DNA of 64,000 nucleotides, taken from Xanthomarina maritima (lineage in GTDB: Bacteria > Bacteroidota > Bacteroidia > Flavobacteriales > Flavobacteriaceae). A program made the position numbers and the translations under genes. Shown one piece after another: positions 28,883-41,588 of the stretch; position 1 is the first letter of the stretch; every line of letters begins with the position of its first letter. The stretch is taken from positions 95,912 through 159,911 of the forward strand of contig NZ_VSFC01000002.1 of assembly GCF_008084905.1 (NCBI RefSeq). The letters are read 5' to 3'. Below the pieces are notes generated by a model. It was not told where the DNA came from. It made no database searches and saw only the letters and a list, made by a program, of their open reading frames with translations.

Positions 28883-30781
28883 ATGAGCGACGCTTTAAAA
28901 CACGAATGTGGTATTGCACAAATTAGACTTTTAAAACCTCTAGAGTTTTATAAGGAAAAATATGGCACAGCTTTTTACGGAGTGAATAAAATGTATTTAA
29001 TGATGGAAAAACAGCACAATCGAGGTCAAGATGGTGCAGGTTTTGCCAGTATTAAATTAGACACCAATCCTGGAGATCGTTATATAAGTCGAGTACGCTC
29101 TATTGCTCAACAACCTATTCAGGATATTTTTGCCCAAATAAACGACAGAATTAATAAAGAAATGTTAGAACATCCTGAATTTAAAGAGGATGTAGCTCTT
29201 CAAAAAAAGCATCTTCCTTATATTGGTGAAGTCCTTCTTGGCCATGTTAGGTATGGAACATTTGGCAAAAACAGCGTAGAAAATGTTCATCCTTTTTTAA
29301 GGCAAAATAATTGGATGCACAGAAATTTAATAGTTGCCGGAAACTTTAACATGACTAATGTTAATGAGTTATTTGATGGTTTGGTAAGAATTGGGCAACA
29401 TCCTAAAGAAAAGGCTGATACTATAACCATTATGGAAAAAATTGGTCATTTTTTAGATGATGCAGTAGCAAAAAAATATAAACAATTAAAAAAAGAAGGT
29501 TATAGTAAAAATGAATGCTCTCCTTTAATTGCAGACCGCCTTAATGTGGCAAAAATATTAAAACGTGCATCAAAAAACTGGGATGGAGGTTATGCTATGG
29601 CTGGGCTTTTAGGTCATGGAGATGCTTTTGTTTTAAGAGATCCAGCAGGTATTAGACCAGCATATTATTACAAAGATGATGAAGTTGTAGTAGTAGCTTC
29701 AGAACGTCCAGTAATTCAAACTGTATTTAATGTAGATTTTGATGATGTAAAAGAACTAGAACCTGGACACGCTATTATCACAAAAAAATCTGGAGAAGTT
29801 TCAATTAAAAAAATCATTGAACCCTTAGAGCGTAAAGCGTGTTCTTTTGAACGTATTTATTTTTCAAGAGGAAGTGATGCAGAAATTTATCAAGAAAGAA
29901 AAAAACTGGGCAAATTACTTATGCCAAAAGTTCTAGAAGCTATTGAAAATGACACTAAAAATACCGTGTTTTCTTATATTCCAAATACAGCTGAAACTTC
30001 ATTTTTTGGAATGATAGAAACTGTTGAAGATTTTCTTAATAAAAGAAAAACACAAGCTATTTTGGATGGCAAAGGAGGCTTATCTGCAGAAAGAGTTAAA
30101 GACATATTAAACGAAAGACCTAGAATTGAAAAAATAGCCATTAAAGATGTTAAACTAAGAACTTTTATTACTGAAGATAGTAGTAGAGATGATTTAGTTG
30201 CACATGTTTATGATGTGACTTATGGAGTAATTAAACCAACCGATAATCTAGTTATTATTGACGATAGTATTGTAAGAGGAACAACTCTAAAAAAGAGTAT
30301 TATTAAAATGATGGATAGATTACATCCTAAAAAAATAATTGTAGTTTCATCTGCTCCTCAAATTCGTTATCCAGATTGTTATGGAATTGATATGGCTAGA
30401 CTGGAAGATTTAATTGCTTTTCGTGCTATGTTAGAATTATTAGAAGAGAACAATAAGTATCATTTAGTTAGAGAAGTTTACGAAAAATGTAAAGCACAAG
30501 AAAATCTAGAAGATAAAGATGTAAGGAATTTTGTTAAAGAATTATATTCAGAATTTACTGCTGATGCTATTTCAAACAAAATTGCAGAATTAATTTGTGA
30601 TGAAACTGTAAACGCTAAAGTAGAAACTATTTTCCAACCCATAGATAATTTACATAAAGCTTGTCCGAAAAATTTAGGCGATTGGTATTTTACTGGTAAC
30701 TATCCAACCGTTGGAGGTAACAGAGTTGTAAACAGAGCTTTTATTAATTTTTACGAAGGAAATAAAGAACGAGCATATTAG
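28883..30781 (+). CDS. purF: Amidophosphoribosyltransferase
   Basis: The 632-residue enzyme makes phosphoribosylamine from PRPP and glutamine, the first committed purine step. The N-terminal nucleophile is Cys9 (KHECGIAQ), implying removal of an eight-residue propeptide. The PRPP site NLVIIDDSIVRGTTLKKS is clear (about 455-472). It is longer than the roughly 500-residue enterobacterial enzyme, mainly through inserts in the glutaminase half and a C-terminal extension, as is usual in Bacteroidota. A PurR-like control site was not recognised. Confidence 0.95.
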   Translation: MSDALKHECGIAQIRLLKPLEFYKEKYGTAFYGVNKMYLMMEKQHNRGQDGAGFASIKLDTNPGDRYISRVRSIAQQPIQDIFAQINDRINKEMLEHPEFKEDVALQKKHLPYIGEVLLGHVRYGTFGKNSVENVHPFLRQNNWMHRNLIVAGNFNMTNVNELFDGLVRIGQHPKEKADTITIMEKIGHFLDDAVAKKYKQLKKEGYSKNECSPLIADRLNVAKILKRASKNWDGGYAMAGLLGHGDAFVLRDPAGIRPAYYYKDDEVVVVASERPVIQTVFNVDFDDVKELEPGHAIITKKSGEVSIKKIIEPLERKACSFERIYFSRGSDAEIYQERKKLGKLLMPKVLEAIENDTKNTVFSYIPNTAETSFFGMIETVEDFLNKRKTQAILDGKGGLSAERVKDILNERPRIEKIAIKDVKLRTFITEDSSRDDLVAHVYDVTYGVIKPTDNLVIIDDSIVRGTTLKKSIIKMMDRLHPKKIIVVSSAPQIRYPDCYGIDMARLEDLIAFRAMLELLEENNKYHLVREVYEKCKAQENLEDKDVRNFVKELYSEFTADAISNKIAELICDETVNAKVETIFQPIDNLHKACPKNLGDWYFTGNYPTVGGNRVVNRAFINFYEGNKERAY

Positions 30782-30802: not shown

Positions 30803-30853
30803 TTTTATCTAACAAATACGTGCTTTTATCTGAAATATTTGCATTTCATCTAA
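30803..30853. repeat. Three phased direct repeats upstream of the small RNA pair
   Basis: TTTTATCTAA (30803), TTTTATCTGA (30824) and TTTCATCTAA (30844) occur at spacings of 21 and 20 bases, about two helical turns. They lie just upstream of the first small RNA candidate and could be a regulator-binding array. Low sequence complexity makes chance similarity possible. Confidence 0.3.
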
Positions 30854-30893
30854 TATATAAAAAAAATAAATAAAATAAAACTACTTTAGACTC

Positions 30894-30966
30894 ACCATAA
30901 CATAAGTAGGTTAAGTTCATGGTAGATTTGGGGCAAAAAAAGGTGAACTCTCGTTCGCCTTTTTTT
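30894..30966 (+). ncRNA. Candidate small RNA, copy 1
   Basis: The element starts ACCATAAC, which pairs with GTTCATGGT (one bulged base) around a 13-base loop ATAAGTAGGTTAA. A single-stranded GATTTGGGGC-A7 linker follows, then a terminator hairpin AGGTGAAC-TCTC-GTTCGCCT with a T run. TACTTTAG at 30882-30889 is a one-mismatch -7 box placed for a start at about 30894. A second copy 203 bases on is the same in all but three positions. A reading frame ATGGTAGATTTG exists inside but is not conserved between copies, so this looks non-coding. Role unknown. Confidence 0.72.
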
Positions 30967-31083
30967 ATTTTTATATTTCTACTTCAATAACAAAAGTTTT
31001 ACTTAATCTCTTATTAATAACTCTTTTAGACTAATATTTAAGTAGTTTATCTATTAATTTTCTTTAATCTAAAATAACAATCA

Positions 31084-31091
31084 TATATTTG
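31084..31091 (+). promoter_or_regulatory. -7 box TATATTTG of small RNA copy 2
   Basis: TATATTTG ends 5 bases before the first base of the repeated element, the right place for its transcription start. No clear TTG -33 element is present. Confidence 0.55.
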
Positions 31092-31096
31092 TTGTT

Positions 31097-31167
31097 ACCA
31101 TAACATAAGTAGGTTAAGTTTATGGTAGATTTGGGGCAAAAAAGGTGAACTCTCGTTCACCTTTTTT
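31097..31167 (+). ncRNA. Candidate small RNA, copy 2
   Basis: The layout is the same as copy 1: ACCATAAC / GTTTATGGT stem with the identical 13-base loop, GATTTGGGGC-A6 linker, and terminator AGGTGAAC-TCTC-GTTCACCT plus T run. Compared with copy 1 there is a C-to-T change at the bulge, one A fewer in the linker, and a G-to-A change that turns a wobble pair into a Watson-Crick pair in the terminator. The flanks are unrelated outside the element. This pattern supports a duplicated RNA gene of about 71 nucleotides. Confidence 0.75.
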
Positions 31168-31232: not shown

Positions 31233-31841
31233 TTATTTTGCTTCAGCATATCTTCTTTCAACTTCATTCCAATTAATTACATTAAAAAATGCATTAATAT
31301 AATCTGGTCTTCTATTTTGATAATTTAAATAATATGCATGTTCCCAAACATCTAACCCTAAAATTGGAGTTCCTCCACAAGTAACTCCAGGCATTAATGG
31401 ATTGTCTTGATTAGGTGTAGAGCAAACTTCTACTTTTCCTCCTTTATGCACACATAACCATGCCCAACCAGAACCAAATTGTGTTGCTGCAGCTTTACTA
31501 AATGCATCTTTAAAAGCATCTACTGAACCATAAGCTGCAATAATAGCATCTTTTAGTTCTCCAGATAAATAACCTTTCCCTTCTGGATTCATTACGTCCC
31601 AAAATAAAGAATGATTATAAAACCCTCCACCATTATTTCTAACAGCTTTATTGTTCATATCTAAATTAGTAAGTATGTTCTCTATAGATTTTCCTTCTAA
31701 ATCAGAACCTGCTATCGCATTATTTAAATTATTTGTATATCCTTGGTGGTGTTTTGAATGATGTATTTCCATTGTACGAGCATCTATATGAGGCTCTAAA
31801 GCATCATATGCATATTTTAATTTCGGTAATTCGAAAGCCAT
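31233..31841 (-). CDS. sodA: Superoxide dismutase (Fe/Mn type)
   Basis: The 202-residue cytosolic enzyme converts superoxide to oxygen and hydrogen peroxide. Metal ligands are the His in [12 protein letters not shown], the His in FYNHSLFW, and Asp and His in [11 protein letters not shown]. The start at 31841 ([12 protein letters not shown]) is chosen because the longer frame to 31880 adds a non-homologous leader that overlaps the promoter box. Iron or manganese preference is not clear from sequence. Confidence 0.95.
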
Positions 31842-31877
31842 AATATTTAATTTTTTAGTGTTAATAATTAATTCTTT

Positions 31878-31885
31878 CAAATTTA
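31878..31885 (-). promoter_or_regulatory. -7 box TAAATTTG of sodA
   Basis: TAAATTTG on the minus strand fits TAnnTTTG and lies 36 bases before ATG 31841. A TTG occurs 14 bases upstream of it, closer than usual. Confidence 0.45.
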
Positions 31886-41514: not shown

Positions 41515-41588
41515 TGGAGAATATCGGATTCGAACCGATGGCCTCTACGCTGCCAGCGTAGCGCTCTAGCCAACTGAGCTAATCCCCC
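41515..41588 (-). tRNA. tRNA-Ala (anticodon GGC)
   Basis: Read on the minus strand, the 74-base gene folds as a cloverleaf. The acceptor is GGGGGAT / ATTCTCC with two G-T pairs, the D arm is GCTC...GAGC, and the anticodon stem CTACG / CGTAG encloses CTGGCAG, giving GGC. The T arm is ATCGG-TTCGAAT-CCGAT. The discriminator is A and the 3' CCA is not encoded. It reads GCC and GCU codons. Confidence 0.96.

Follow-up and report, generated by a model that had tools for sequence, protein, structure and literature searches.

A tandem small RNA family of Flavobacteriaceae and its likely partner, the mRNA of a small protein

Two near-identical elements that lie in tandem between a purF-like and a sodA-like gene belong to an uncatalogued RNA family that is common in Flavobacteriaceae. 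The elements are likely to be paralogous small regulatory RNAs (sRNAs) of about 71 nt, a reading in which their expression is inferred. An sRNA family with a multi-site partner in a small-protein mRNA is likely to be new to the literature; the pairing of the two is inferred. The most likely explanation for these observations, held with moderate confidence, is trans-acting repression of a co-regulated small-protein mRNA, with the direction of the effect, the toxicity of the protein and the identity of a regulator all resting on inference.

The two elements between purF and sodA

The window, i.e. the whole 64-kb stretch of DNA that was analysed, carries the two copies with starts at 30894 and 31097, 203 nt apart (Table 1). 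A sequence-only reading had proposed two near-identical elements at these places, and this was confirmed. Its further claims held on re-reading of the sequence: the identity of the copies begins 4-5 nt past a -7 box and stops in the terminator T-run, the flanks appear unrelated, and there are three differences, C/T at nt 25, one A in an A-run and G/A in the terminator stem. The proposed fold of a 5' hairpin, a G-rich linker and a terminator was also supported, with folding energies at z -4.0 and -4.2 relative to dinucleotide shuffles, none of the 200 shuffles equalling either copy. The claim of a 13-base loop held only in part, since the predicted 5' hairpin contains an inner three-pair stem closing a 5-nt loop, and the larger loop is valid only with this stem open. 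Similar -7 boxes at the same distance precede the copies of relatives, as judged by eye without a count.

Table 1. Features of the sRNA locus in the window and of the partner locus on contig C27 of the same genome
Feature	Position	Strand	Basis or remark
purF-like gene (amidophosphoribosyltransferase family)	28883..30781	+	conserved upstream neighbour; context, outside the mechanism
Three direct repeats TTTTATCTA / TTTTATCTG / TTTCATCTA	30803..30852	+	candidate operator of copy 1; repeats start at 30803, 30824 and 30844
-7 box of copy 1, TACTTTAG	30882..30889	+	
sRNA copy 1, C25 subtype	30894..30967	+	sequence, fold, alignment of relatives
5' hairpin of copy 1	30894-30923	+	
G-rich linker of copy 1	about 30924-30934	+	
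Terminator hairpin of copy 1	about 30935-30966	+	
Operator-like TTTATCTA	31046..31053	+	about -50 of copy 2
-7 box of copy 2, TATATTTG	31084..31091	+	
sRNA copy 2, T25 subtype	31097..31167	+	anatomy as in copy 1
sodA-like superoxide dismutase gene	31233..31880	-	conserved convergent neighbour; context
Small ORF	C27:167635-167763		downstream of scoB
Complementary sites	C27: about 167570-167599; 167609-167637; 167640-167677		

The best NCBIfam models of the two neighbouring genes were TIGR01134 for the purF-like gene and Mn superoxide dismutase for the sodA-like gene, each under the curated cut-off. A known Rfam RNA was rejected for lack of any match at the gathering threshold. Rfam 15 placed no family at the sRNA locus when run on the whole window, where the sole match was a tRNA at 41515-41588, and a search of six loci at a relaxed E-value, Flavo-1 included as the sequence-only reading had advised, returned nothing reaching the gathering score. 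An sRNA-encoded peptide, held to be unlikely in the same reading, was rejected because the A-run indels between the copies disrupt the reading frame.

Distribution, synteny and conservation

A first DNA search of 99 relatives returned strong copies across much of family f1, and matches outside f1 had E values of 0.009 or weaker, except for one 24-nt match at 1.3e-5. Partial nhmmer matches were removed before the alignment set was assembled; it comprised 109 sense copies, the window's two included, which were read from 50 loci and represent 90 distinct sequences. A covariance model detected the family in 163 of 199 genomes of the same family (Flavobacteriaceae) at 1-6 copies: one in 37 of the sRNA-positive genomes, two in 74 and three or more in 52. 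Given 109 copies in 50 loci and this presence in the 163 genomes, the two elements are not a product of chance, and the refutation by absence of conservation beyond this genome, which the sequence-only reading had allowed for, failed.

Strong covariance-model matches were confined to Flavobacteriaceae in a sample of 296 genomes of the phylum. Weak matches (E 6e-4 to 8e-3) occurred in 14 genomes outside the family, 11 of which were fetched; in the six alignments read they cover chiefly the terminator hairpin, and no homology is therefore claimed outside the family. The exact 24-nt core was present in at least 118 stretches of genome_contigs; 80 of these stretches we take to be from Flavobacteriaceae genera, or from broader Flavobacteriaceae/Bacteroidetes MAGs. 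The viral_contigs held no exact match to the core, and a spread of the sRNA by phages was rejected on this ground.

The genomic position is stable. The genes purF and/or sodA adjoin 47 of the 50 sRNA loci, the remaining three being additional to a copy at the purF/sodA position of the same genome, and one or both genes were found in 114 of the 118 exact-core stretches. Mostly, tandem copies are arranged between purF and sodA. Split arrays were observed in two genomes: at L061/L062 (G014:C24) one sRNA lies by purF and another about 18 kb off by sodA in opposite orientation, and at L029/L069 (G021:C1) about 219 kb separate the copy on the purF side from that on the sodA side.

Among the 90 distinct sequences, nt 1-41 vary at few positions, the main 5' variants being A/G at nt 1 and 7, C/T at nt 25, an extra A after nt 31 and, in some, a change of GGGG to GGGA. 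Helix 1 is 99.7% paired with six of its 11 pairs invariant, and the terminator shows changes on both sides in nine of its 11 pairs. The covariation check proposed in the sequence-only reading was run with this outcome: the terminator covaries and the 5' part is nearly constant. Because the 5' part is the most constant region, the element is not a terminator-only repeat, the other refutation foreseen there.

In many genomes the first copy is of the C25 subtype and a later one of the T25 subtype, each with its own upstream sequence (by eye, and with exceptions); this suggests that the copies are old and under separate regulation. One clade (L051-L054 and L056-L058) appears by eye to have position-linked array subtypes, often with GCC...GGGGC first, ACC...GGGGA or GGGA in the middle and GCC...GGGACG last; the last copy has a conserved but different upstream sequence. 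A divergent copy at L044 (G022:C72) keeps an ACCATAA/TTATGGT stem and the GATTTGGGGC linker with a different loop.

A conserved small-protein gene as partner

Minus-strand partial matches in the DNA search of 99 relatives pointed to one locus in the window's own genome and in 12 relatives. On its complementary strand this locus carries up to three GCCCCAAATCTACCATAAACTTAACCTACTTATG-type sites and an ORF of 40-42 codons. The gene upstream of the small ORF in the window's own genome is scoB (NCBIfam TIGR02428), and the 500 nt upstream contained a scoB-like C-terminal pattern in 29 of 37 ORF loci and, with a looser pattern, in 16 of 20 further loci. Of the 37 loci, 13 were first noticed through antisense matches and 24 through a protein profile. 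Thirteen weak profile matches were fetched; G037, G018, G008, G039, G056, G033, G048 and G034 were kept, and G049, G065, G040, G086 and G060 were left out by eye as unlike the protein. Twelve of the 37 loci, with diverged, frameshifted or extended ORFs, were excluded from the pN/pS, promoter and ORF-operator tests.

The small ORF is conserved at the protein level and is under purifying selection at that level, with a pN/pS of 0.25 within the genus (8 genomes) and 0.47 across 25 genomes, compared with 0.59-1.27 in shifted frames. Conceivably, the opposite strand of the scoB-side locus could be the one transcribed, giving a third repeat-bearing RNA that shares the sRNA motif; up to three copies of this motif lie there in reverse orientation. 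This reading is all but excluded, as the selection on the ORF, the start codon, a conserved operator-like block and a -7-like box are all found on the complementary strand.

No match was obtained in Pfam and NCBIfam for the three small proteins searched. AlphaFold predicted a single helix at residues 12-41 (mean pLDDT 76.9, pTM 0.37). The 18-residue hydrophobic moment was about 0.6 in three proteins and 0.28 in an EEIQVY-type protein, so that three of the four proteins computed have an amphipathic helix and the EEIQVY-type one is not strongly amphipathic. A single-helix protein of 40-42 aa without a Pfam or NCBIfam match, and without a description in the open-access literature searched, is likely to be previously undescribed. 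We infer that it probably acts on membranes through its amphipathic helix; toxicity is a guess from the helix.

Some loci depart from the common form. At L100 (G012:C12) the small ORF is apparently frameshifted in a T-run and all three complementary sites are intact, possibly a sequencing error or a site-only remnant. Shorter ORFs of the ..KKVFL type at L111 (G034), L097 (G019) and L098 (G045) have a CCCAAATCTG-like stretch past the stop codon, and only that of G034 reaches the site threshold.

Complementarity between the sRNAs and the small-protein mRNA

The complementarity spans sRNA nt ~8-44, and the sites are located in the leader, across the start codon and in codons ~3-10. In the 37 ORF loci 68 sites were counted, compared with 0.4 in shuffles and 1 with the reversed sRNA, and 30 of the loci had at least one; for two genomes of this set (G022, G057) a consensus sRNA was used. 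Twenty further loci that had been found by protein profile alone contained 36 sites in 18 loci, compared with 0.37 in shuffles and 0 with the reversed sRNA. The other seven of the 37 loci were without a site that reached the main threshold. Sites are weak in the EEIQVY-type clade, where a lower threshold gave P<0.05 in seven of ten leaders and not in the other three. The shuffle controls ignore common descent, and neither the sites nor the co-occurrence described below were corrected for phylogeny.

Since one site codes for conserved PNLP residues, the sites were recounted by place. Of the 68 sites, 27 precede the ATG, 16 overlap it, 24 fall within the CDS and 1 lies past the stop codon; for the 36 sites the numbers were 13, 7, 15 and 1. 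Protein conservation cannot explain the 44 of 68 sites (28 of 37 loci; 15 of the 24 loci not found by antisense) and the 21 of 36 sites (16 of 20 loci) that lie outside the CDS. It may be what conserves site 3, which falls in the codons of the PNLP motif. Duplexes within the window's own genome reached -29 to -48 kcal/mol per site, and shuffled means were about -11 to -14.5.

The insertions in the sRNA and in its sites were compared as well. A site with an extra T was found in 3 of 11 genomes with an extra-A sRNA versus 0 of 26 without it (one pattern), and the plain site in 21 of 26 genomes without the extra A versus 0 of 11 with it. Two of the three extra-T genomes are congeneric (G226, G327), eight of the 11 extra-A genomes had neither site form by the pattern used, and two genomes without read sRNAs were left out. 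Altogether, sRNA-mRNA pairing is strongly supported by sequence and energy and is likely, the pairing itself being an inference made without binding data. The suggestion in the sequence-only reading of duplicated sRNAs with a shared C-rich target has held, as the complement of the GGGG linker and the loop recurs in the small-ORF mRNA; the target mRNA itself, the operator and the co-occurrence with the small protein were absent from that reading.

An activating role has been considered, in which pairing at the upstream site would remodel the leader and the start-codon match would be secondary. One site does lie upstream in the leader, and the predicted leader fold of the window's own genome pairs parts of it. 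Ribosomes, however, are normally blocked by long pairing across the ATG and first codons, and activation is considered very unlikely.

Searches with short patterns addressed other complementary places. In eight congeneric genomes GCCCCAAATCTACCAT gave 42 matches with up to 2 mismatches, compared with 5 for the reversed pattern. Of the 42, sRNA copies account for 16, the small-ORF mRNA for 15 and the 3' UTR of one gene for 3, which leaves 8 others. Exact CCCCAAATCTRYCAT had 55 matches in 58 genomes and 1 in the reversed control. Fourteen of the 55 were outside canonical sRNA copies, namely 6 in small-ORF mRNAs, 3 in one gene's 3' UTR, 2 in a repeat of G014, 2 antisense in unrelated CDSs, which are likely due to chance, and 1 at L044. 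A hit at L005 was rejected as a sense-strand coincidence inside a CDS.

At L209 (G000:C28), L208 (G002:C6) and L160 (G007:C99), GCCCCAAATCTATCATAAATTC lies just past the stop codon and before a terminator-like hairpin. The gene encodes a large protein that reads as a secreted surface protein, and the place is a possible 3' UTR sRNA site. In G014, L205 and L206 are two copies of a repeat of about 100 bp with a stretch of about 20 nt nearly identical to the sRNA core; by eye, they adjoin small genes that look like those of mobile elements.

The start-codon pattern AACTTAACCTACTTATG, again with up to 2 mismatches, matched 25 places in the eight congeneric genomes, of which 16 belong to sRNA copies, 1 to a small-ORF mRNA and 8 to neither; the reversed pattern matched 20. 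A second candidate target mRNA was observed at L404, L405 and L406 (G001, G003, G004), where a probably secreted protein of 264-269 aa (MNKLTYLCLI...) without a convincing Pfam match is encoded. By eye, its gene has a similar direct-repeat block, a TATATTAGCAGTCCCAAATC-like start and a complementary site in the first codons. As the AACTTAACCTACTTATG counts are close to the reversed control, this candidate rests on orthology and the operator.

Co-occurrence and copy number

The sRNA and the ORF were searched for separately in 199 genomes of the family, nearly one genome per genus (198 genera). Both searches are taken as the same draw because every ORF-positive handle was also sRNA-positive. The ORF was detected in 116 of the 199 genomes, all 116 of which have the sRNA; 47 genomes have the sRNA alone, 36 have neither and none has the ORF alone (Fisher P 8e-17, without tree correction), the ORF being found in 0 of the 36 sRNA-negative genomes. 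A single sRNA copy was present in 7 of 116 ORF genomes versus 30 of 47 ORF-less genomes (P 2e-14). Some ORF-less genomes are small and MAG-sized; among those of at least 2.5 Mb, a single copy was present in 14 of 26 (P 7e-8).

In 17 genomes of genus g78 the ORF was not detected, the best match (E 0.018) having an inner stop, and the sRNA is kept there. A search of the same 17 genomes for the 24-nt complement with up to 3 mismatches yielded 33 matches in 15 genomes; by position, every match is an sRNA copy, and there was no other site. Since 47 of the 163 sRNA-positive genomes, and all 17 of g78, retain the sRNA with no ORF detected, the sRNA must have other functions.

One might suppose that the 5' domain is mainly bound by a protein, e.g. 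an RNA-binding protein of the RRM type, and that the complementarity is secondary. The greater conservation of nt 1-41 than the varying sites require, the invariant pairs of helix 1 and the maintenance of the sRNA where the ORF was not found would agree with this. The one-way co-occurrence with the ORF and the coupled A/T insertions argue against it, and we regard it as very unlikely.

A candidate operator common to both genes

The three direct repeats upstream of copy 1 are spaced by 21 and 20 bp and share the register of the relatives (about -90/-70/-50). With the pattern used, they are the only pairs spaced 19-22 bp on either strand of the window. Of the 109 copies, 39 had the motif T[TC]NATC[TG]N at -49/-50 and 20 had it at -69/-70. 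A TTTNATCTA-like motif in register (about -50, -70 or -90) was found in at least one place in 52 of 109 copies and in at least two in 16, so that about half of the copies are without a recognisable element. The strict form TTTCATC[TG]A occurred in 17 of 109 sRNA upstream regions (0.2 in shuffles, 2 reversed, 3 on the other strand) and a looser form in 36 (3.4, 9 and 9, respectively).

The strict motif also precedes the small ORF, in 13 of 25 upstream regions compared with 0.04 in shuffles. The ORF promoter contains GTATTTCATCGATT, followed about 20 bp on by GTATTTTAACTGA and then by a CATATTAGC box; a gapped form of this block was found once per genome in the eight congeneric genomes, with no match for the reversed control. 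Related direct-repeat operators thus precede the sRNA and the ORF genes, as shown by sequence similarity; a common regulator that binds them is inferred.

Proposed mechanism

In the repression that we favour, the small-ORF mRNA would be the main sRNA partner in the window's own genome. Nucleotides ~8-44 of the sRNA would pair with the mRNA sites, opening the sRNA's own 5' hairpin, and a duplex over the ATG and first codons would block the initiation of translation. Several sites together with several sRNA copies may result in tight, dose-dependent silencing. A common transcription factor is envisaged to drive the sRNA and the small-ORF mRNA alike; with such a regulator of both partners, protein would be made only when the mRNA outnumbers the sRNAs, and the circuit would act as an incoherent feed-forward or threshold switch. 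The leader sites distant from the ATG speak against this reading in that a simple start-codon blocker has no need of them. The repression resembles that by type I antitoxins in form and suggests a dedicated RNA switch, an inference from sequence without expression, binding or phenotype data.

The main rival holds that the small-ORF mRNA, along with some 3' UTRs, is a sponge or decoy that titrates the sRNAs, the real targets being other mRNAs, to which the sRNAs would bind through short seeds. Once the shared regulator induces the small-ORF mRNA, these other targets would be released. This reading is supported by the two or three redundant sites in many of the mRNAs, by the sites wholly in the leader before the ATG (27 of 68 and 13 of 36), by post-stop sites in G034 and G414, by the sites in the 3' UTR of the large protein gene (G000, G002, G007) and by the retention of the sRNA in the 47 genomes without the ORF. 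The ORF itself is nevertheless under purifying selection, and few other complementary places were seen in the eight congeneric genomes (the 8 remaining GCCCCAAATCTACCAT matches, with 5 for the reversed pattern). We consider the sponge unlikely.

Repression of the small-protein mRNA therefore remains the preferred reading. A bolder version is no more than possible: a trans-encoded module like a type I antitoxin, in which a membrane-active protein would be silenced by a dedicated array, the mRNA would be both target and sponge, one regulator binding the direct repeats would drive both sides, and the number of sRNA genes would set the threshold.

Relation to known systems

The paralogous FopS/GibS sRNAs of Bacteroides are multicopy RNAs of ~65-70 nt with a conserved 5' seed and a diverse 3' part (PMC11697453). 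The 14 FopS copies, classed as intergenic, antisense or 3'-UTR-derived, have housekeeping-type promoters, act at start codons and repress SusC-type mRNAs (PMC11697453). The present family is similar in its occurrence in Bacteroidota, its multiple copies, its size, its conserved 5' part and more variable 3' part, its promoter-like boxes and, by inference, its action at start codons, but its copies lie mostly in one syntenic array and are accompanied by a multi-site small-protein mRNA. Regarding homology to the FopS R1' seed, an R1 model gave nothing convincing outside the family in the 296 phylum genomes; no direct comparison with FopS was made.

In E. coli, dinQ-agrA/agrB involves the mRNA of a small membrane peptide (PMC3567139). 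Its two small RNAs are antisense-complementary to the peptide mRNA. Small RNAs complementary to a small-protein mRNA are common to both systems, whereas the present sRNAs are unlinked to their target, which has up to three sites, and toxicity is only inferred. The likeness to FopS and dinQ-agrAB is one of form, and membership in either is not claimed.

Conserved sRNAs of Flavobacteriaceae have been described as Rfp RNAs in Flavobacterium psychrophilum, among which Rfp18 is said to pair via its third stem-loop and to affect metalloprotease mRNAs (PMC9723704). The present family shares the conservation in Flavobacteriaceae, but its complementarity, in contrast to Rfp18, is at nt ~8-44; purF and sodA are unnamed in the main text of that paper, and one of the Rfp RNAs may still correspond to the present locus. 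LhrC1-7 of Listeria and the Neisseria sibling sRNAs are named as further multicopy sRNAs (PMC11697453). These have overlapping targets and belong to other phyla, and to our knowledge neither has a dedicated small-ORF partner of such kind.

Compared with type I toxin-antitoxin systems, extended complementarity at the translation-initiation region is present here, as far as sequence and energy indicate. The partner is in the size range (40-42 aa, below about 60 aa), and its one predicted helix is amphipathic in three of the four proteins computed, membrane activity being inferred from the helix alone. The usual, but not universal, adjacency is absent: the sRNAs are on C26 by purF-sodA and the ORF is on C27 by scoB. 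In G031 and G046, which are single large contigs, the sRNA and the ORF are more than 200 kb apart. The features of a tandem paralogous sRNA family are met, with several near-identical genes that each have a promoter-like box (by eye) and a terminator, transcription being inferred. The open-access literature searched, supplements excluded, contained no description of the array or of the small protein.

Few sRNAs of Bacteroidota are understood. With a likely target, binding sites and promoter elements identified, and natural variants available, the pairing can be tested immediately. Because copy number is linked to whether the ORF is present, these genomes also allow a natural test of why multicopy sRNAs are maintained. 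Should the protein turn out to be toxic or membrane-active, it would count as an RNA-controlled protein of type-I-like form outside the phyla that one 2025 abstract lists (PMC12390103).
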